Below are positions 276-14,324 of a DNA stretch of 14,324 nucleotides, piece by piece. This DNA is from Anaerolineae bacterium. GTDB taxonomy: Bacteria > Chloroflexota > Anaerolineae > JAFGEY01. The stretch covers positions 1 through 14,324 of the forward strand of contig JAFGEY010000182.1 of NCBI GenBank assembly GCA_016931365.1, written 5' to 3'. Position 1 is the first letter of the stretch, and each line of letters opens with the position of its first letter. The position numbers and the translations under genes are program-made. The notes under the pieces were generated by a model. It saw nothing but the letters and a program-made list of their open reading frames with translations. It ran no database searches and was not told the origin of the DNA.

Positions 276-1565
276 ATGCCAGCACCACATGCAAACAAAA
301 CCATCGGTGTCCTGGTTGGCGGAGGCCCCGCGCCCGGACTGAACAGCGTCATTCACGCCGTCACCATTGAGGCGATCAACAACGGGTTCCAGGTTTACGG
401 GATCATGGAAGGGTTCAAGTATTTGGCATCCGGCGAAGGTGAGGGTAACATCATCCCCCTGGGCATCCGCGACGTGAGCCGCATTCACCTCAAGGGGGGC
501 AGCATCCTCAAAACGTCGCGCGTCAACCCGACCCGCAAAGAGGAAACCTTGCGCAAGTGCGTGGAAACCCTGAACGAATTCGGCATCTCGCACCTGGTCA
601 GCATCGGCGGCGACGACACGGCCTTTTCGGCCTACTCGGTGGCCCGCTATGCCCAGGACAAGATGGGACTGGACATCCGCTCGGTGCACGTGCCCAAAAC
701 CATCGACAATGACCTGCCGCTGCCGGAGGGCATCCCTACCTTTGGCTTTGAGACGGCCCGTGAAGTGGGCACGAAGATTGTACAAAACATCATGGAAGAC
801 GCGCTGACCACGCAACGCTGGTACATCATTGTTGCTATGGGCCGCAAGGCCGGCCACCTGGCTTTGGGCGTCGGCAAGAGCGCCGGCACGACGCTGACCA
901 TCATTCCCGAAGAGTTTCCCCACAAGCCGATCCGTATGCAGGAACTCGCTGACATTGTTGCCGGCTCGATCATCAAGCGGCTGGCGATGGGCTTGCCCTA
1001 CGGCGTGGCGGTGGTCGCCGAGGGGATGATGGAGATCATCGATCCCGGTGATTTTGAGTTTATCGAAACCATCGAGCGCGACGAGCACGGCCACCCGCGC
1101 CTGGCCGAAGTCAACTCGGCGGCAATCGTCAAGCAAGAAGTGCGTAAAGTGCTTGACAGTCTGGGTGTCAAGATGACCATCGTCGACAAAGAACTGGGCT
1201 ATGAACTTCGCTGCGCCGACCCGTGCGCATACGACATCGATTACACGCGCAGCCTCGGCGAGGCGGCGGTCACCTTTTTGCGCGAAGGCGGCACCAATGC
1301 CATGATCACCATCCAGCAGAACCAGTCCAAGTCCATCCCTTACGATAATTTGATGGACCCGGCCACCGGGCGCACCGAGGTGAGGATGGTCAACATCAGC
1401 TCGTTCACCTACAGGTCAGCGCGCAAGTTTATGATCCGCCTGACCGAAGCTGATTTCAAGGATGAAAAACTGCTTTTCAGCATTGCAAGCGAGACCAGCC
1501 TCTCGCCTCAAGCATTTGTGCAGCGTTTTGGCTACCTGGGCGGCGTCGCGCCGCGCCCGTTTTAG
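276..1565 (+). CDS. 6-phosphofructokinase, probably pyrophosphate-dependent
   Basis: This 429-residue phosphofructokinase-family protein phosphorylates fructose 6-phosphate at C1 in glycolysis. The phosphate-donor loop GGGPAPGLN is at residues 15-23, GGDDT at 111-115, PKTIDND at 140-146, MGRKAGHLAL at 188-197 and PEEF at 211-214. Two positions decide the phosphate donor. Asp114 replaces the glycine of ATP enzymes (E. coli position 104), and Lys141 replaces Gly124. In characterised family members this Asp/Lys pair marks the PPi-dependent, reversible enzyme. The start is fixed by AAAGGAGGAG six bases upstream of ATG. The gene stands alone, with its own promoter and terminator. The family is certain; PPi use is a residue-based inference. 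Confidence 0.93.
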   Translation: MPAPHANKTIGVLVGGGPAPGLNSVIHAVTIEAINNGFQVYGIMEGFKYLASGEGEGNIIPLGIRDVSRIHLKGGSILKTSRVNPTRKEETLRKCVETLNEFGISHLVSIGGDDTAFSAYSVARYAQDKMGLDIRSVHVPKTIDNDLPLPEGIPTFGFETAREVGTKIVQNIMEDALTTQRWYIIVAMGRKAGHLALGVGKSAGTTLTIIPEEFPHKPIRMQELADIVAGSIIKRLAMGLPYGVAVVAEGMMEIIDPGDFEFIETIERDEHGHPRLAEVNSAAIVKQEVRKVLDSLGVKMTIVDKELGYELRCADPCAYDIDYTRSLGEAAVTFLREGGTNAMITIQQNQSKSIPYDNLMDPATGRTEVRMVNISSFTYRSARKFMIRLTEADFKDEKLLFSIASETSLSPQAFVQRFGYLGGVAPRPF

Positions 1566-1586
1566 CCTGATACAGAGCTAATCATC

Positions 1587-1622
1587 AAGCCCTTGGACAA
1601 TCTGTTGCCAAGGGCTTTTTTT
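1587..1622 (+). terminator. Rho-independent terminator after phosphofructokinase
   Basis: A perfect 10-bp stem (AAGCCCTTGG at 1587-1596 with CCAAGGGCTT at 1608-1617) has an 11-nt loop and ends in an uninterrupted T tract (1616-1622). It lies 22 bp after the phosphofructokinase stop codon and separates that gene from the signalling cassette. Confidence 0.9.
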
Positions 1623-1649
1623 CACTCACAGCGAGCTGAGAATCTGCCC

Positions 1650-1678
1650 TTGTCCTTCAGGGCAAGCTGTGCTACAAT
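1650..1678 (+). promoter_or_regulatory. Putative extended -10 promoter of the GAF/MinD/patatin/receiver cassette
   Basis: TTGTCC (1650-1655, four of six consensus bases) is followed after 17 bp by TACAAT (1673-1678). A TGc at 1670-1672 makes it an extended -10. The predicted start near 1685 gives a leader of about 45 nt before the TTG start codon at 1731. It lies just downstream of the preceding terminator, as expected for the promoter of the next unit. Confidence 0.6.
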
Positions 1679-1730
1679 GGTAAACAATGATAATCCCCAG
1701 ACTATGCAATCCATTTGATGGAGACGGGCA

Positions 1731-2711
1731 TTGAACAAGCCGCCGCTCGGACGATTGCTGGACAGGCGACAGATCCAAACGCTACTCCAGGACTGGAGCA
1801 CCTTGAGTGACATGCCGGTCATCTTGGGCGTTGCCGAAGCTTCCGGTCGCTGGATCGCCGCATACCCAGCGGCCCCGCAAGATGCGCCGATTGAGCAGGT
1901 CTGCCAATCCGGGCAAATGCTGATCGACGAGAAAACAGCGATCCTGCCATTGATCGATGACGACGGCAACGTGCTCGGCGCATTGTATATGGCCCCGGAT
2001 CGGCCCAATTTGCGCGTTGCTCTGCACCACGTTCTCTCCCTTGTGCTACAAAAAGAAGCGATGCTCAAGTCGCTCGCCCAGGAAACGCTGGATCGCTACC
2101 GCGAGGTCAACCTGCTCTACCGCGTCCACGAAACGATCGGCACCTCGGTTGACCTGAACGAGGTGGTGCGGCGCGTGCTGGACGAAAGTGTGCGCATCAT
2201 CAAAGCCGATGGGGGGATGGTGCTTTTGCCCGACGAGTTGACCAATGCGCTGATTGCGTGCGACAGCACGGGGTTGGATGATCCGACGCGCCGGGATGCG
2301 CTGCTCGGACACGAGTCGGCCCAGCAGGTTTTCCAGAGCGGGCGGCCGCAAATTCTGAACGAATTACAGGCGGCCGCATCGTTCCCATTCAGCGCGCTGC
2401 TGGCGGCACCGCTCAAAGCTCAAGAGATCACGCAGGGTGTGATCACGCTCTTTCGCACGCAGCAAGACGCAATGTTTACTGCCGGCGACGAAAAACTGCT
2501 CAATGCGCTGGCCTCGCAGGCCGGTATTGCCATCGCCAATGCCAGGCAAGTGCAAGAGCGCGAGCAGCGGTTCAAACAACAAATCCAGGCCCTGCGCATC
2601 GAGATCGATGAGGTCAAAAAGCAAAAAGAGGTTGCCCACATTACCGAAAGCGAATATTTCCGTTATCTGCAAGAAAACGCGCAGCGTATGCGCGAAGAGT
2701 TTGATATCTGA
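1731..2711 (+). CDS. GAF-domain sensory protein with coiled-coil C-terminus
   Basis: This is a soluble 326-residue protein. Residues about 25-100 form an alpha/beta region ending in ILPLIDDDGNVLGALYM, which looks like half of a degenerate GAF/PAS-type sensor. Residues about 105-132 are a helical linker, and 138-272 are a GAF domain (DLNEVVRRVLDESV, then APLKAQEITQGVITLF and LLNALASQAGIAIANA). Residues 273-325 are highly charged and predicted coiled coil. No kinase, cyclase or DNA-binding output domain is present, so it probably signals through partners. The start is TTG at 1731, since GGAG lies 7 nt upstream and no in-frame ATG fits. It is the first gene of a co-directional cassette with a MinD-like ATPase, a cNMP/patatin protein and a receiver. 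Its ligand is unknown. Confidence 0.8.
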   Translation: MNKPPLGRLLDRRQIQTLLQDWSTLSDMPVILGVAEASGRWIAAYPAAPQDAPIEQVCQSGQMLIDEKTAILPLIDDDGNVLGALYMAPDRPNLRVALHHVLSLVLQKEAMLKSLAQETLDRYREVNLLYRVHETIGTSVDLNEVVRRVLDESVRIIKADGGMVLLPDELTNALIACDSTGLDDPTRRDALLGHESAQQVFQSGRPQILNELQAAASFPFSALLAAPLKAQEITQGVITLFRTQQDAMFTAGDEKLLNALASQAGIAIANARQVQEREQRFKQQIQALRIEIDEVKKQKEVAHITESEYFRYLQENAQRMREEFDI

Positions 2712-2786
2712 TAACTCTAGAATCCTGTTTGGTTCCGACTCTGTCCGGGTCAGGACATCCCCCGACCGTTCGTATGGAGGCACAGT

Positions 2787-3542
2787 ATGGCTAAATTGAT
2801 CTCTTTGCACTCGTTCCGGGGAGGCACGGGCAAATCCAACATCACCGCCAACCTGTCCGCCGTCCTGGCCCTGGCCGGGAAACGCATTGCCATCATCGAC
2901 ACCGACATCCAGTCGCCGGGCATCCACATTATCTTTGGGCTGAACGAAGATCTGGCCGGTTACACCTTGAACGATTACCTGTGGGGCAAATGCCGCATCG
3001 AAGAGGCCGCTTACGATGTGACTCCCCAGGAAGCGGTACAGGGCAAGATATTCCTGGTGCCCTCCAGTATCAAGATCAATGAAATTTCACGTATTTTGCA
3101 CGAAGGCTATGATGCGCGCCTGCTCAAAGACGGGTTCAAGGCGCTGGTGCGCAGCCTGTCTTTGGATTATTTGATCATCGACACGCACCCCGGATTGAAC
3201 GAGGAAACGCTGCTCTCGATCGCCATCTCGAACATTTTGATCATCATTCTCCGTCCCGACCAGCAAGATTTGCAGGGCACCAGCGTCACTCTCGAAGTTG
3301 CCAGAAAGCTTGGCGTCCCCACGATGTTTCTCGTGCTCAACAAAATTTTGCCGGACGGCGATTTCAAAGCCTATCGCACGCAGTTGGAACAAACCTACAA
3401 CACCGAGATCGGCGCGTTGCTGCCTTTGGCAACCGAGATCGTCCGCCTGGCCAGCAGCGGAATTTTTTACCTGCAATCTCCCAAACACCGCTTCAGCAAA
3501 GAGATCAAGGCCTTGGGTGACAAAATATTGGCCGTGGAGTAG
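2787..3542 (+). CDS. MinD/ParA-like P-loop ATPase with FRGGTGKSN Walker A
   Basis: A 251-residue deviant-Walker-A ATPase of the MinD/ParA/Mrp (SIMIBI) class. The P-loop FRGGTGKSN spans residues 10-18, the switch I region IIDTDIQSPG begins near residue 36, and Walker B is LIIDTHPG in mid-protein. The usual signature lysine before GG in KGGxGKT is Arg11 here. I recall RGG variants as a distinct MinD-like subgroup in Cyanobacteria, Actinobacteria and Chloroflexota, so this may not mean loss of function. No clear C-terminal amphipathic membrane-targeting helix is seen. GGAGG at 2776-2780 sets the ATG. The gene lies 75 bp after the GAF gene and 3 bp before the cNMP/patatin gene. It is no ordinary cell-division MinD, because minC and minE are absent nearby. 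A polarity or complex-assembly role is inference. Confidence 0.85.
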   Translation: MAKLISLHSFRGGTGKSNITANLSAVLALAGKRIAIIDTDIQSPGIHIIFGLNEDLAGYTLNDYLWGKCRIEEAAYDVTPQEAVQGKIFLVPSSIKINEISRILHEGYDARLLKDGFKALVRSLSLDYLIIDTHPGLNEETLLSIAISNILIIILRPDQQDLQGTSVTLEVARKLGVPTMFLVLNKILPDGDFKAYRTQLEQTYNTEIGALLPLATEIVRLASSGIFYLQSPKHRFSKEIKALGDKILAVE

Positions 3543-3545
3543 ACG

Positions 3546-5522
3546 ATGCGCCCAGAAGACGTAAATCAGCATCCCAGCGATGGGGCAGATGGCGCGTTTG
3601 GCTGGCTCAAAAGCGGTCAGGTTCGCCCGCGCCAGCACAACGAGGCCTTTTCGGTGACCCAACTGCTGGACCTGCCCGAAGAGCAGCGCGAGTTGATGCT
3701 CGAGCTCAACAGACGCGAGCCGATCACCCTGGCCGAACTTGCGCGCGCGCTCGACCGCAGTCCGACCGAACTGGAGCTTCAACTCAACCAGTTAGTAGCC
3801 CAGAACTGGCTCGAAGTCCAGGAAGACGATTTTGGCGAGTGGATTTACCGAGTGCGTATGGCCCGGCACAGCAAGCGTATCCTGCCGCCTGGAATCTGGC
3901 AAACGCTGGACGATCAGTGGCAAATCCCCATCTTTCGCCTCTTTTCCGAAGCTGCTCTGGAAGAATTCTCGCAACGCTTCAAGCTTGAGCATCATCCCGA
4001 AGGCGCGATCCTGTTTCGCGCTGGCGAGTGGAGCACGCGGATGTACGTGGTTGACAGCGGCAGGATCGAACTGACGGTTCACAATCAGGCCGGCGATCCC
4101 TTTGTCGTCCGCGAGATCACGTCGGGCGACGTTTTTGGCGAAATGTCGATTGTTATCGGCGAGCAACGCCCTTATACTGCGTATGTAAGCGAAGAGGCGC
4201 GTGTGTGGACGCTCGACAAAGCCGACCTGGACTACTTGCTCGCGCAGTACCCGTCGGCAGGATTGTCGATCCGCCGCGAACTGGCCCGGCAGCACAAAAC
4301 GTCGCATAGTATGGCCGAAACCCAAATGCAGCACAACCCCGTTGTCGCTGTTGGAGATGAGGGGGCAAAACTGGCCTGGCGGCTGGCCAGGCAGGTTAGC
4401 GGCCCTGTCGCCTGCATCGATCTGATCGGCAAGCAACCTGAACCGCTGCCCAATTTGACCTACATCGAAGGCAGCGGGATGCGCAGCAAAACCATCGCCG
4501 ACACGATCAGCGAGCAAATCAGGCGCGGGGCCTGGGTGGTCATTGCCGCCTACCCGCAGATGACCGATCAATTGATGCGCGTGATCGGCCTGGCCGAGGT
4601 GGTGATCGATCTGACCGGCAACGGCGCTCCCTGGCTGCGCGCTGCGTCGCGCCGATACTGGAATATGCCCGCCAGCGGCGACTTGCACCTGTCGCGCCTG
4701 GCCCGCAAACTGACCGGCCAGGTTACCGGGTTGGTGCTTTCCAGCGGCGTTGCGCGGACGATAGCTCACCTCGGCGTGCTCCAGGTGCTGGACGGCGCAG
4801 GCATCGAATTTGATGTGATTGCCGGATGCGGCTACGGCGCGTACTGGGGTGCTCTATATGCCGCAGGATGGTCGATTGAGCAGATGATTGACCTGGCAGT
4901 GAACAAAATGGCCAGACTCCAGCCTTTTGGCGGCTGGCTGGGCCTGCGTCCCGCCGCGCGATCAGGGCTGTTCGACGCCCAGTCTGTGCGCAGACTGATC
5001 CGCGAGACAATCGGCGTCCGAACCTTTGCCGATCTCAAAACGCCATGCCAGTTGGTGGTCAGCGATCTGGTCACAGGCGACACGATCTGGATCGATCGCG
5101 GCAACCTGTTCAACGTCTTGTCTGCCTGTGTGGCAATACCCGGCTTGGTTACGCCGGTTGAACTCCAGGACCGACTGCTGGTCGACGCCATTCTGACCAA
5201 CCCGCTCCCCGCCGACGCGGCAGCTACCCAGGATACTGATATTGTCATCGCCAGCAGCGTCATTCCCACGTCCAGTATGCGCCAGCAAAAGACCCTGCAA
5301 GACCAGAAACAAGACCTGGTCAGCAGTTGGTTCAGCGTGTGCGATATCGTTGCCCACGCTCGCTCGCTCGATCACGTTCAAGTGATCGATCTGCTGATCG
5401 CCCCACAGATCGCCGATTTTGCCGATACCGCCTTTGAGCACGCCGAACGCCTGATCGAACGGGGGCGCCAGGCTGCCGAAAAAGCCCTGCCGCAAATCAA
5501 AAAACTTACAAGCCCGGAGTAA
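3546..5522 (+). CDS. Winged-helix / cNMP-binding / patatin-like fusion with degenerate active site
   Basis: This 658-residue protein has four regions. Residues about 35-105 look like a winged helix (ITLAELARALDRSPTELELQL). Residues about 125-240 are a CRP-like cyclic-nucleotide domain whose phosphate-binding cassette SGDVFGEMSIVIGEQRPYTA keeps Glu199 and Arg208. Residues about 264-375 are a Rossmann-like segment. Residues 395-560 are a patatin/NTE-type domain. cNMP-plus-patatin order recalls the neuropathy-target-esterase family. In the patatin domain the oxyanion loop GGGxxG is SSGVART (399-405), and the nucleophile elbow GxSxG is GCGYG (427-431) with Gly429 in place of the catalytic Ser. 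The dyad aspartate survives in VDAIL (Asp547). Lipase activity is therefore unlikely, and a cNMP-responsive scaffold is more probable (inference). The RBS GGAG (3536-3539) lies inside the end of the ATPase gene, implying coupled translation. Confidence 0.85.
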   Translation: MRPEDVNQHPSDGADGAFGWLKSGQVRPRQHNEAFSVTQLLDLPEEQRELMLELNRREPITLAELARALDRSPTELELQLNQLVAQNWLEVQEDDFGEWIYRVRMARHSKRILPPGIWQTLDDQWQIPIFRLFSEAALEEFSQRFKLEHHPEGAILFRAGEWSTRMYVVDSGRIELTVHNQAGDPFVVREITSGDVFGEMSIVIGEQRPYTAYVSEEARVWTLDKADLDYLLAQYPSAGLSIRRELARQHKTSHSMAETQMQHNPVVAVGDEGAKLAWRLARQVSGPVACIDLIGKQPEPLPNLTYIEGSGMRSKTIADTISEQIRRGAWVVIAAYPQMTDQLMRVIGLAEVVIDLTGNGAPWLRAASRRYWNMPASGDLHLSRLARKLTGQVTGLVLSSGVARTIAHLGVLQVLDGAGIEFDVIAGCGYGAYWGALYAAGWSIEQMIDLAVNKMARLQPFGGWLGLRPAARSGLFDAQSVRRLIRETIGVRTFADLKTPCQLVVSDLVTGDTIWIDRGNLFNVLSACVAIPGLVTPVELQDRLLVDAILTNPLPADAAATQDTDIVIASSVIPTSSMRQQKTLQDQKQDLVSSWFSVCDIVAHARSLDHVQVIDLLIAPQIADFADTAFEHAERLIERGRQAAEKALPQIKKLTSPE

Positions 5523-9163: not shown

Positions 9164-10048
9164 GTGTCGACAGCCAAAGCGCTCTTTAAAACAATGCGAC
9201 CCAAAGAATGGGTCAAAAATGTGTTTATCTTTGCGGCAATTGTCTTTGATCGAAAACTCTTTGCGCCTAATGCTTTGTTGCGTACCATAGCCACCTTTGT
9301 CGCCTTCTGTCTCATCTCAAGCACCATCTACCTTATCAATGACCTGGCTGATATTGAAAAGGACCGCCAGCACCCCATCAAGCGCAAGCGCCCGCTGCCT
9401 TCTGGACAGCTCAGGCCAGGCATTGCCATTGTTGCCGCGATCATCATTCCGCTGATCATCATTCCTCTGACCTTTGTGGTCGATCTGACGCTGGGGGGCA
9501 TTGTGGCCGTTTACTTGGGACTGATGATCCTGTACACATTTTACCTTAAACAGTTTGTGATCATCGACGTGATGACCATTGCCACCGGGTTTGTGCTGCG
9601 CGTGGCAGCCGGCGTAGTGGTGATTGATGTGGAACGTTTTTCACCCTGGCTGTACGTCAGTATGACCCTGCTGGCTCTCTTTTTGGGGTTCGGCAAGCGC
9701 CGCCACGAACTCTTTACGCTGGAAGAAGACGCCGGCAACCACCGCGCCAGCTTGCAACACTACAGCCTGGAACTGATCGACCAGATGACGGTCGTGGTCT
9801 TTTCGGCAGCACTGATGTGCTATTCGCTGTATACCTTTTCTGCGGAAAACTTGCCGCGCATCGACGGGCAGCCGGTGATGATGCTGACCATTCCCTTTGT
9901 GCTCTATGCGATGTTTCGTTATCAATACCTGGTTCATGTGCGCAAGATGGGTGGCTCGCCGGAAGAGATCGTGCTGGGTGATCCGCCTTTTATCGGTGCG
10001 CTGCTCTTGTATGGAATTATGGTGCTTGTTCTGATGTATTTGTTCTAG
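9164..10048 (+). CDS. UbiA-superfamily prenyltransferase, decaprenyl-phosphate phosphoribosyltransferase-like
   Basis: A 294-residue integral membrane protein of the UbiA superfamily with about eight or nine hydrophobic segments. The first Asp-rich motif is NDLADIEKDRQHPIKRKRPLPSG (residues 59-81), in the NDxxDxxxD form. The second conserved region has GFGKRRHEL (175-183) rather than a DxxxD motif. The xHPxKRxRPxxxG block and GKR follow the mycobacterial DPPR synthase (UbiA/Rv3806c) type, which transfers phosphoribose from PRPP to a polyprenyl phosphate. That reaction is known for arabinan precursor synthesis; its role in this organism is unclear. The start is GTG at 9164, with GGGAGG 5-10 nt upstream. 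It is monocistronic, between its own promoter and terminator. Family certain, exact substrate inferred. Confidence 0.85.
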   Translation: MSTAKALFKTMRPKEWVKNVFIFAAIVFDRKLFAPNALLRTIATFVAFCLISSTIYLINDLADIEKDRQHPIKRKRPLPSGQLRPGIAIVAAIIIPLIIIPLTFVVDLTLGGIVAVYLGLMILYTFYLKQFVIIDVMTIATGFVLRVAAGVVVIDVERFSPWLYVSMTLLALFLGFGKRRHELFTLEEDAGNHRASLQHYSLELIDQMTVVVFSAALMCYSLYTFSAENLPRIDGQPVMMLTIPFVLYAMFRYQYLVHVRKMGGSPEEIVLGDPPFIGALLLYGIMVLVLMYLF

Positions 10049-12487: not shown

Positions 12488-13141
12488 ATGAAAAAAATGA
12501 ATCGGCGGCAGTTCTTGATCTTGTCAGGCGGGTCACTTGGTGGTATGATTGCTCTCTGTGGTGGCGGCGCGGCGCTGTCCGTGTGGTCGCCGCCGGCCGA
12601 CATGGCTCAATCCAGTTGCGGAAAGGAAGAGAACGTGACGAAAAAAGTCTTGGTGGCCTATGCCAGCAAATGCGGTTCGACCGGTGAAATCGCCCAGGCG
12701 GTGGGCGATGTGCTCTGCGAAAGCGGCGCAGAGGTCGATGTCAAGCCGGTCAAAGCGGTGACCTCTCTGAGCGGCTACGATGCGGTGATCGTCGGCACGG
12801 CGATACGCATGGGGCAGTGCCTGCCAGAAGCCAAAAGGTTTGTCGAGAAACATAAAGAAGATTTGAGCAAGGTGCCCCTGGCCTACTTTGCCGCCTGTCT
12901 GGCGCCTACAGCGACGGACGAGGCGGAGCGCAAGCAGGCCGAAACCTACCTCGACGCGCTCAAGGCGATTGTCAAGCCGGCTGCCGAAGGTGTTTTCGCC
13001 GGCAAAATGGATTCTAAAAAGCTGTCCTTGTTGTTCAGACTGATGATGAACATGGCCAAGATGGAAGAAGGCGATTTCCGCGACTGGGCGGCGATCAAGG
13101 CCTGGGCGCAAGAGATCCAACCCGTCCTGCTCAAAGCCTGA
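12488..13141 (+). CDS. Tat-signal flavodoxin-domain protein
   Basis: A 217-residue protein with a probable Tat signal. NRRQFLILSGG (residues 5-15) is followed by a Gly/Ala-rich hydrophobic stretch to about residue 34. From residue about 52 onward it is a flavodoxin fold, with KKVLVAYASKCGSTGEIAQ holding the FMN phosphate loop and GYDAVIVGTAIRMGQ the next strand and flavin loop. It belongs to the flavodoxin_5 type, like the menaquinone-dependent protoporphyrinogen oxidase HemG, though HemG itself is cytoplasmic. A GTG at 12635 could start a soluble form without the signal. The upstream ATG, with GGGGG 4 nt ahead and a twin-arginine motif in frame, argues for the long form. FMN loading before Tat export would suit this route. 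Physiological partner unknown. Confidence 0.82.
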   Translation: MKKMNRRQFLILSGGSLGGMIALCGGGAALSVWSPPADMAQSSCGKEENVTKKVLVAYASKCGSTGEIAQAVGDVLCESGAEVDVKPVKAVTSLSGYDAVIVGTAIRMGQCLPEAKRFVEKHKEDLSKVPLAYFAACLAPTATDEAERKQAETYLDALKAIVKPAAEGVFAGKMDSKKLSLLFRLMMNMAKMEEGDFRDWAAIKAWAQEIQPVLLKA

Positions 13142-13170
13142 GATTTGATCGCGCGCTGGTTCGGTAGTAA

Positions 13171-13315: not shown

Positions 13316-14251
13316 GTGACCCAGGCTCATGCCCCCGCAAAAGTCATTTTGTTCGGCGAACACGCCGTCGTCTATGGCCAACCGGCGATCGCCGTGCCCG
13401 TGACCGACGTGCGCGCCACCGTGATCGTTGAACCGGCCCCGCTTGGCGCGGGGATCGCCATCGACGCGCGCGACATCGAGCGAACCGTCCGCCTGGACGA
13501 GGCCCCGTCCGACGAGCCGCTGGCGCTCACGGTGCGCAATACGCTGGCCCACCTCGGTCTCGACGAGCGCAAACTCGATCTAAACCTGACCATCATCTCG
13601 ACCATTCCCGTCGCCAGCGGGCTGGGCAGTGGCGCGGCAGTGGCAGTGGCCCTGATCCGCGCCCTCAGCGCGCGCCTCGGCCGGCCGCTCGACGCGGCGC
13701 AGGTTTCCGCGCTGGCCTACCGAACGGAAACGCTCTTTCACGGCACGCCCAGCGGCATCGATAACACAGTCATCGCCTATGAGCGGCCGGTCTATTTCAA
13801 AAGGAATTGTCCCATCGAAACCTTTGGCGTCCACACGTCGTTCTGGATTGCCATCGCCGACACCGGCCGGCCCGGCCTGACCAAAGCCTCCGTTGCCGAC
13901 GTGCGTGCGGCTTGGCAGTGCGATCCGGCGCATTATAATGCGCTTTTCGATGCGATAGGATGCGCAGTCGATCGTGCGCGGCAGGCCATCGAAAAAGGTG
14001 ATGTGGCCGCACTGGGCCCGTTGATGCTTGAAAATCAAGCCCTGCTGCGCCGGATCGACGTTTCTTCGCCCGAACTGGAAACGCTGATCGCGGCGGCGTT
14101 GGGTGCAGGCGCGGCAGGGGCCAAACTCTCCGGCGGCGGGCGCGGTGGCAACATGATCGCCCTGGTGACGCCGCAAAACGCCGGACAAATACGCCGCGCC
14201 CTGCTTGACGCCGGGGCCAAAAATGTGATCGTCACAGGAGTGGGAACATGA
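13316..14251 (+). CDS. mvk: Mevalonate kinase
   Basis: A 311-residue GHMP-family kinase that phosphorylates mevalonate to mevalonate 5-phosphate in isoprenoid synthesis. Motif 1 is PAKVILFGEHAVVYGQPAIAV (residues 7-27). The ATP-binding motif 2 is PVASGLGSGAAVAVA (98-112). The catalytic-aspartate block is GTPSGIDNTV (143-152), and motif 3 is KLSGGGRGGNMIALV (270-284). Length and HGTPSGID are typical of mevalonate kinase, not phosphomevalonate kinase or galactokinase. The frame is open to 13145, but the extra 57 codons cross the upstream terminator. GTG at 13316, with AAGGA ahead, starts exactly before the conserved HAPAKVILFGEH. The stop overlaps the next start as ATGA, so the following decarboxylase is translationally coupled. 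Confidence 0.92.
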   Translation: MTQAHAPAKVILFGEHAVVYGQPAIAVPVTDVRATVIVEPAPLGAGIAIDARDIERTVRLDEAPSDEPLALTVRNTLAHLGLDERKLDLNLTIISTIPVASGLGSGAAVAVALIRALSARLGRPLDAAQVSALAYRTETLFHGTPSGIDNTVIAYERPVYFKRNCPIETFGVHTSFWIAIADTGRPGLTKASVADVRAAWQCDPAHYNALFDAIGCAVDRARQAIEKGDVAALGPLMLENQALLRRIDVSSPELETLIAAALGAGAAGAKLSGGGRGGNMIALVTPQNAGQIRRALLDAGAKNVIVTGVGT

Positions 14252-14324
14252 ACGTGCCGGACTTGATCGAGGCTTTGCGCGCCGCAGAGCAATTGACGGT
14301 GATCGAGCGCGAGGTCGATCCGCA
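14248..14324 (+). CDS. UbiD-family decarboxylase, 5' fragment
   Basis: Only the first 25 codons are inside the window. The peptide begins MNVPDLIEALRAAEQLTVIE and continues REVDP. It matches the opening of UbiD-type decarboxylases, where a short helix (xLRxFLxxLExxGEL) is followed by xRIxxEVDP. UbiD enzymes use prenylated FMN and decarboxylate unsaturated acids. The ATG overlaps the mevalonate kinase stop (ATGA), with AGGAG at 14236-14240. The coupling suggests a mevalonate-pathway substrate, such as anhydromevalonate 5-phosphate, instead of the ubiquinone precursor (inference). The family call rests on a short stretch; the active-site residues lie beyond the window. Confidence 0.65.
   Translation, partial: MNVPDLIEALRAAEQLTVIEREVDP

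Follow-up and report, generated by a model that had tools for sequence, protein, structure and literature searches.

The archaeal (anhydromevalonate-phosphate) mevalonate pathway is said to have been described from Aeropyrum pernix by Hayakawa in 2018. Within the phylum Chloroflexota, Ca. Promineifilum breve reportedly possesses the same two diagnostic enzymes, and the activity of both is said to have been shown by Kanno in 2024. A later paper (PMC13001223, 2026) states that some Chloroflexota encode the archaeal-type pathway and cites Kanno 2024 (AEM e01106-24) on Ca. Promineifilum breve. The anhydromevalonate-phosphate route is therefore already known in bacteria, and the bacterial first implied by the initial annotation of the locus analyzed here had been anticipated in print. 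Other sources treat the pathway as ATP-saving and as exclusive to archaea (PMC10040528, 2023), assign a haloarchaea-type route to Chloroflexota (PMC11052028, 2024), and describe a phosphomevalonate decarboxylase (PMD) plus isopentenyl phosphate kinase (IPK) route in Roseiflexus castenholzii, another member of this phylum (Dellas 2013, PMC3857490). A wider survey of the anhydromevalonate-phosphate route in Anaerolineae was not found in the open-access literature, including the accessible text of PMC11129491; most subscription papers lay outside the scope of this search.

The DNA under study, hereafter the window, is a stretch of 14,324 nucleotides from an uncultured Chloroflexota bacterium near Anaerolineae. 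As judged from its sequence and that of its relatives, the window very probably ends inside the lower part of the archaeal-type mevalonate pathway. In this pathway, mevalonate kinase (MVK) would yield mevalonate 5-phosphate (MVA5P), a two-subunit aconitase X (AcnX) would dehydrate MVA5P to trans-anhydromevalonate 5-phosphate, a prFMN-dependent UbiD coupled to MVK would decarboxylate the latter to isopentenyl phosphate, and IPK would convert isopentenyl phosphate to IPP. The MVK gene, a start/stop overlap, and the beginning of a UbiD gene are observed in the window, and the remaining pathway genes are observed in its relatives; we infer the presence of the same pathway genes in the window's own genome, as well as the enzyme activities. 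As in A. pernix, the relatives of the window carry MVK, UbiD, in most cases IPK, and an AcnX whose large subunit mostly has the MVA5P site; unlike in A. pernix, the hosts are bacteria, some genomes have a single cluster that begins at mvk, and the enzyme activities are predicted from the genes. The R. castenholzii route shares with the proposed one the phylum and the last steps, namely isopentenyl phosphate and IPK, but it relies on a GHMP decarboxylase where the proposed route has AcnX and UbiD. The present analysis adds the spread of the route, the gene cluster, and the pattern of PMD exclusion, with a gene set that looks common in the group. The relevant features of the window are as follows.

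13316 to 14251, plus strand: mevalonate kinase (MVK) of the GHMP family, 311 amino acids from a GTG start, matched by TIGR00549, GHMP_kinases_N, and GHMP_kinases_C
14236 to 14240, plus strand: AGGAG, read from the sequence as the probable ribosome-binding site for the gene that follows, within the end of the MVK gene
14248 to 14251, plus strand: ATGA start/stop overlap, composed of the ATG at 14248-14250 and the MVK stop TGA at 14249-14251
14248 to 14324, plus strand: opening 25 codons of a gene for a UbiD-family decarboxylase, assigned by local score against P0160 and by the UbiD_N register, with the contig ending within the gene

The MVK gene, which is present in the window itself, scored 242.6 bits against the TIGR00549 mevalonate kinase model (cut-off 163.05) and matched both the N- and C-terminal GHMP kinase domains. 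A longer in-frame start exists at 13145; the start at 13316 is favored by the four closest relatives, which are 309-311 amino acids long and whose alignment begins at 13316. Identity to relatives reaches 85% among the matches listed, and the three relatives with organism names among at least 120 matches listed are Anaerolineae. When the window MVK was used as a lone query, the scan of genome contigs returned zero relatives, and with alignment A1 it returned the best 80 of 576 loci. The MVK tree contained 116 rows, with G016 present twice; MVK frames shorter than 280 amino acids were dropped, and 14 loci were left out, of which 13 repeat genomes already included and one (L163 from G081) has a cut MVK frame. 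The MVK of locus L101 from genome G012 is recovered as the sister of the window MVK (support 100/98, with the bootstrap not yet settled), and G012 is the sole member of its own family and order in the genome collection used.

The overlap of the MVK stop with the next start, claimed in the initial annotation, is borne out at 14248-14251, and we infer translational coupling of MVK and UbiD. The downstream frame extends for only 25 codons (14248-14322) before the contig end, and such a short visible frame could belong to a gene other than UbiD that overlaps MVK by chance. Consistent with this explanation, the 25-codon peptide alone matched Pfam UbiD_N weakly (E 0.069, profile positions 1-19), and a PDB search with the peptide returned a single match to another protein at chance level. 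However, comparison of the peptide with the N-terminal 60 residues of 121 UbiDs gave a best local score of 87 (P0160), whereas the best of 200 shuffles reached 43, and thus the UbiD-like opening of the frame, also claimed initially, exceeds chance. The full-length P0160 matches UbiD_N with residues 7-83 (profile positions 1-78) in the same register as the window peptide, and the tree sister G012 has a UbiD gene directly after MVK. Given this evidence, a non-UbiD frame is extremely improbable. The truncated UbiD, of which the start lies in the window and the full length is seen in relatives, is a proposed anhydromevalonate-phosphate decarboxylase.

We further assessed the linkage of MVK and UbiD in the relatives. 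P0160 and P0002 (an MVK 85% identical to that of the window) have a common source, number of contigs, and longest contig (5647), and from the matching contig size and source they appear to lie on one contig. The contig-sharing comparison covered the 59 best of 119 listed MVK relatives, 40 of which are on contigs 2200 bp or longer. For 17 of these 40 MVK clusters, the contig size and source match those of a UbiD among the 120 UbiDs listed, and a control with sizes shifted by 1-3 bases gave 0 matches. The other 23 clusters, including P0003 (84%) and P0004 (76%) on long contigs, had no UbiD partner among the 120 UbiDs listed. In the class of genome G001, MVK was matched at E 1e-60 or better in 325 of the 396 genomes. 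The best 30 MVK loci of this class search have UbiD directly downstream in six cases, IPK in four, and neither in 20. UbiD directly follows MVK in the four best matches (L101, 65%; L102, 61%; L103, 60%; L104, 58%), with a distance of 6 nt in G012, the best-placed genome relative (MVK 65%). Altogether, UbiD lies no more than 150 nt after MVK in 15 distinct genomes, and the pair in G081 has a 558-nt gap. Within the initial set (the best 80 of 576 loci), UbiD follows MVK in L049, L066, and L075 only, and IPK does so in many. The 4-nt MVK/UbiD overlap recurs in L075 and L174. For the close MVK of L050 (G005), neither UbiD nor IPK was found beside the gene in the DNA covered. Mapping the UbiD label onto the MVK tree requires 9 changes, and supported branches force no fewer than 7 of these, indicating that the MVK-UbiD linkage was gained or lost repeatedly.

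The pathway genes in relatives form clusters. In L165 (G071), the MVK, UbiD, AcnX large, AcnX small, and IPK genes follow one another on one strand and are tightly packed, with junctions of -14, +7, -4, and -4 nt provided that the likely AcnX starts are correct.

8468 to 7506, same strand as the rest of the cluster: MVK, TIGR00549 258.9 bits
7519 to 6221, same strand as the rest of the cluster: UbiD, TIGR00148 348 bits
likely 6213 to 4981, same strand as the rest of the cluster: AcnX large, Pfam AcnX 504.4 bits
likely 4984 to 4553, same strand as the rest of the cluster: AcnX small, AcnX swivel 120.3 bits
4556 to 3744, same strand as the rest of the cluster: IPK, IPPK_Arch 169.6 bits

The L132 locus (G016) contains MVK, UbiD, an inserted gene, AcnX large, AcnX small, and IPK, and the L167 locus (G114) contains UbiD, AcnX large, AcnX small, and IPK in this order. 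The AcnX small gene was not found after AcnX large in L083, L089, L149, L164 (G012), and L172, with at least 1.4 kb in view. The inserted gene of L132 (4116-6203, minus strand), located between UbiD and AcnX large, encodes a protein kinase fused to an FGE-sulfatase domain. A gene with a similar start is found just before AcnX in L136 from G001 (769-2829, minus strand).

Two groups of UbiD proteins were distinguished, clade 1 comprising the MVK-linked type (124 genomes) and clade 2 defined by 46-52% identity to L049 (14 genomes), whereas the UbiDs of G007 and G059 fall in neither clade. The nearest solved structure to P0160 is 6h6v (269 bits), which we take to be HmfF. Among the matches listed, the database names of UbiDs are mostly generic or '2,5-furandicarboxylate decarboxylase', the latter being frequent in JGI. 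Both facts would agree with a UbiD that decarboxylates another acid, furan or aromatic in the manner of HmfF, and merely adjoins mvk. However, in a UbiD tree of 43 rows, HmfF was placed on a long branch and, together with four other Chloroflexota UbiDs, outside a clade of 38 rows comprising clades 1 and 2. This was a quick tree with long outgroup branches and no archaeal enzyme, and 21 loci that duplicated others had been omitted from it. Clade 2 is clearly delimited in this tree, and L075, L163, and L167 of clade 1 are unplaced beside the remaining rows. The specific aromatic and menaquinone NCBIfam models gave no match over cut-off in the UbiDs of L049, L066, L075, and L165, for which only the general TIGR00148 model did. 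The clustering of UbiD with AcnX and IPK in L132, L165, and L167 and the co-occurrence of clade 1 with AcnX rather than PMD in the class survey described below also argue against another acid as the substrate, which we consider very unlikely. The menaquinone- or aromatic-acid identity, raised in the initial annotation as the contrary outcome for UbiD, did not emerge from this comparison. Some JGI names among the matches listed, in both clades, are anhydromevalonate phosphate decarboxylase (P0143, P0300, and P0323).

A tblastn search of plasmids for the archaeal references revealed bacterial relatives only, at 30-39% (40 of 208 records listed), and a protein search from UbiD clade 2 gave only Chloroflexota among the organism names, where given, of the 120 matches listed. 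AcnX was detected in 0 of the 119 genomes of the archaeal phylum of the Woesearchaeota locus L070 (G400), in contrast to PMC11052028, where most DPANN archaea are credited with the archaea-type pathway.

The AcnX proteins were assessed with respect to their fit to MVA5P. The large subunit of L132 scored 378.5 bits against the Thermococcus enzyme TkAcnX (7cnr/7cns) compared to 264-269 bits against cis-3-hydroxyproline dehydratase, and the small subunit scored 134.7 bits compared to 68-70 bits. The MVA5P contact residues of TkAcnX were obtained from the accessible part of PMC8184944, and 11 large-subunit positions, namely ten contacts and the specificity position Ala47, were checked. Of the 19 other AcnX large subunits aligned, 15 agree with TkAcnX at all 11 positions, including those of G012, G016, G071, and G114. 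The AcnX proteins of L138 and L178 differ at position 47 only, 3 of the 11 positions are changed in L137 from the Promineifilum MAG, and the AcnX of L082 resembles the hydroxyproline type. The clade-2 AcnX proteins of G010 and G031 have the full set of checked positions. UbiD-linked AcnX thus appears, by alignment, mostly to keep the MVA5P-binding residues of the archaeal enzyme. Other bacterial type-II AcnX proteins are placed in subclasses of unknown function in the accessible part of the same paper (PMC8184944). The Promineifilum MAG is of the same phylum as the window, and its UbiD (L095) falls within clade 1 in the UbiD tree. In contrast, its AcnX (L137, adjoining UbiD) is more divergent (146.5 bits to TkAcnX) and is encoded by a larger frame that ends in the small-subunit domain, and its mvk and ubiD are not adjacent in the loci covered (L034 and L137).

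The class survey used the same 396 genomes for all searches, and incomplete MAGs depress each of its counts. PMD/DMD (TIGR01240) was over cut-off in 202 genomes, AcnX was found in 166, and a UbiD of clade 1, clade 2, or neither clade (E 1e-80 or better) in 140; 77 genomes had neither such a UbiD nor PMD. AcnX was present in 132 of the 140 genomes with UbiD compared to 34 of the 256 genomes without it. For the clade-1 UbiD, the corresponding numbers were 118 of 124 genomes compared to 48 of the other 272. PMD, for which 17 sub-cut-off matches were taken as the 17 weakest by E-value, occurred in 11 of the 124 clade-1 genomes compared to 191 of the other 272 (odds ratio 0.041, Fisher p 1.4e-32, the survey p-values being inflated because genomes of one class share ancestry and are not independent). 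Clade-1 UbiD and AcnX were found together without PMD in 107 of the 396 genomes.

These data bear on a further explanation, in which isoprenoids would be formed via PMD and IPK as in Roseiflexus, and UbiD and AcnX would be accessory or provide a second parallel route. PMD is indeed present in 11 clade-1 genomes, G012 among them, and in 12 of the 14 genomes with the more distant UbiD clade 2, and archaeal (Asgard) MAGs carrying both gene sets are reported in the accessible part of PMC11052028. Nevertheless, PMD over cut-off is absent from 113 of the 124 clade-1 genomes, and mixing of MAGs may account for some double carriers; we regard the PMD and IPK explanation as very unlikely. The coexistence of clade 2 with PMD is not explained by the anhydromevalonate-phosphate route. 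The clade-2 UbiD adjoins AcnX in all four loci inspected (L139, L166, L177, and L178), and its pairing with AcnX beside PMD could reflect either two parallel routes or another substrate. In L139, L166, and L178 (G010, G031, and G171), the clade-2 UbiD was observed beside both AcnX large and AcnX small, with at most one of the checked site positions changed in the large subunit.

Based on the survey and the gene clusters, the anhydromevalonate-phosphate route is probably common and often clustered across Anaerolineae, where it would largely substitute for the PMD route; other members would have PMD together with a second UbiD/AcnX pair. A widespread bacterial version that largely excludes PMD would provide a series of natural switches from one isoprenoid route to the other within one class and would bear on the movement of mevalonate pathways between domains. 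In addition, many bacterial AcnX and UbiD enzymes become candidates for engineering.

The remaining pathway-related genes were checked in selected genomes. UbiX passed the cut-off in 10 of the 15 clade-1 genomes checked and in G010 (clade 2) but in none of 4 PMD-only genomes, and IPK was over cut-off in 13 of the 15 clade-1 genomes, the exceptions being G012 and G209. UbiX over cut-off was missing in G001, G012, G016, G071, and G114 (TIGR00421 at most 27 bits). UbiD genomes without a recognizable UbiX may be incomplete MAGs or may have another source of prenylated FMN. In the G012 genome, MVK and UbiD are paired and AcnX retains the complete large-subunit site, but a PMD/DMD gene (236.8 bits) is present as well; UbiX gave no match, IPK did not reach the cut-off, and AcnX small was not found within 3 kb after AcnX. 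The initially suggested search for AcnX, UbiX, and IPK as opposed to PMD, carried out in the relatives, had a favorable outcome in most clade-1 genomes but not in G012, which has PMD and lacks a UbiX match and an IPK over cut-off. The G012 MAG may be incomplete or mixed, or G012 may truly carry both gene sets, and the same could apply to the window's organism. The fit of a bacterial mvk-ubiD pair to the anhydromevalonate-phosphate route, proposed in the initial annotation, is supported in the relatives by AcnX, IPK, and often UbiX, with PMD/DMD mostly replaced.

Several other genes were observed in the window and in G012. A flavodoxin gene with a twin-arginine-like N-terminus (12488-13141, plus strand) is located directly upstream of mvk in the window, and G012 has a flavodoxin-like gene (L131, 85-621) approximately 5 kb upstream of mvk. 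A UbiA-family protein (9164-10048, plus strand) matched decaprenyl-phosphate phosphoribosyltransferase with 255.3 bits (cut-off 234), a kind of enzyme best known in mycobacteria. Finally, a single protein encoded at 3546-5522 (plus strand) combines cyclic-nucleotide-binding and patatin-phospholipase domains, and its gene adjoins those of an AAA/ParA-type ATPase and a response regulator.
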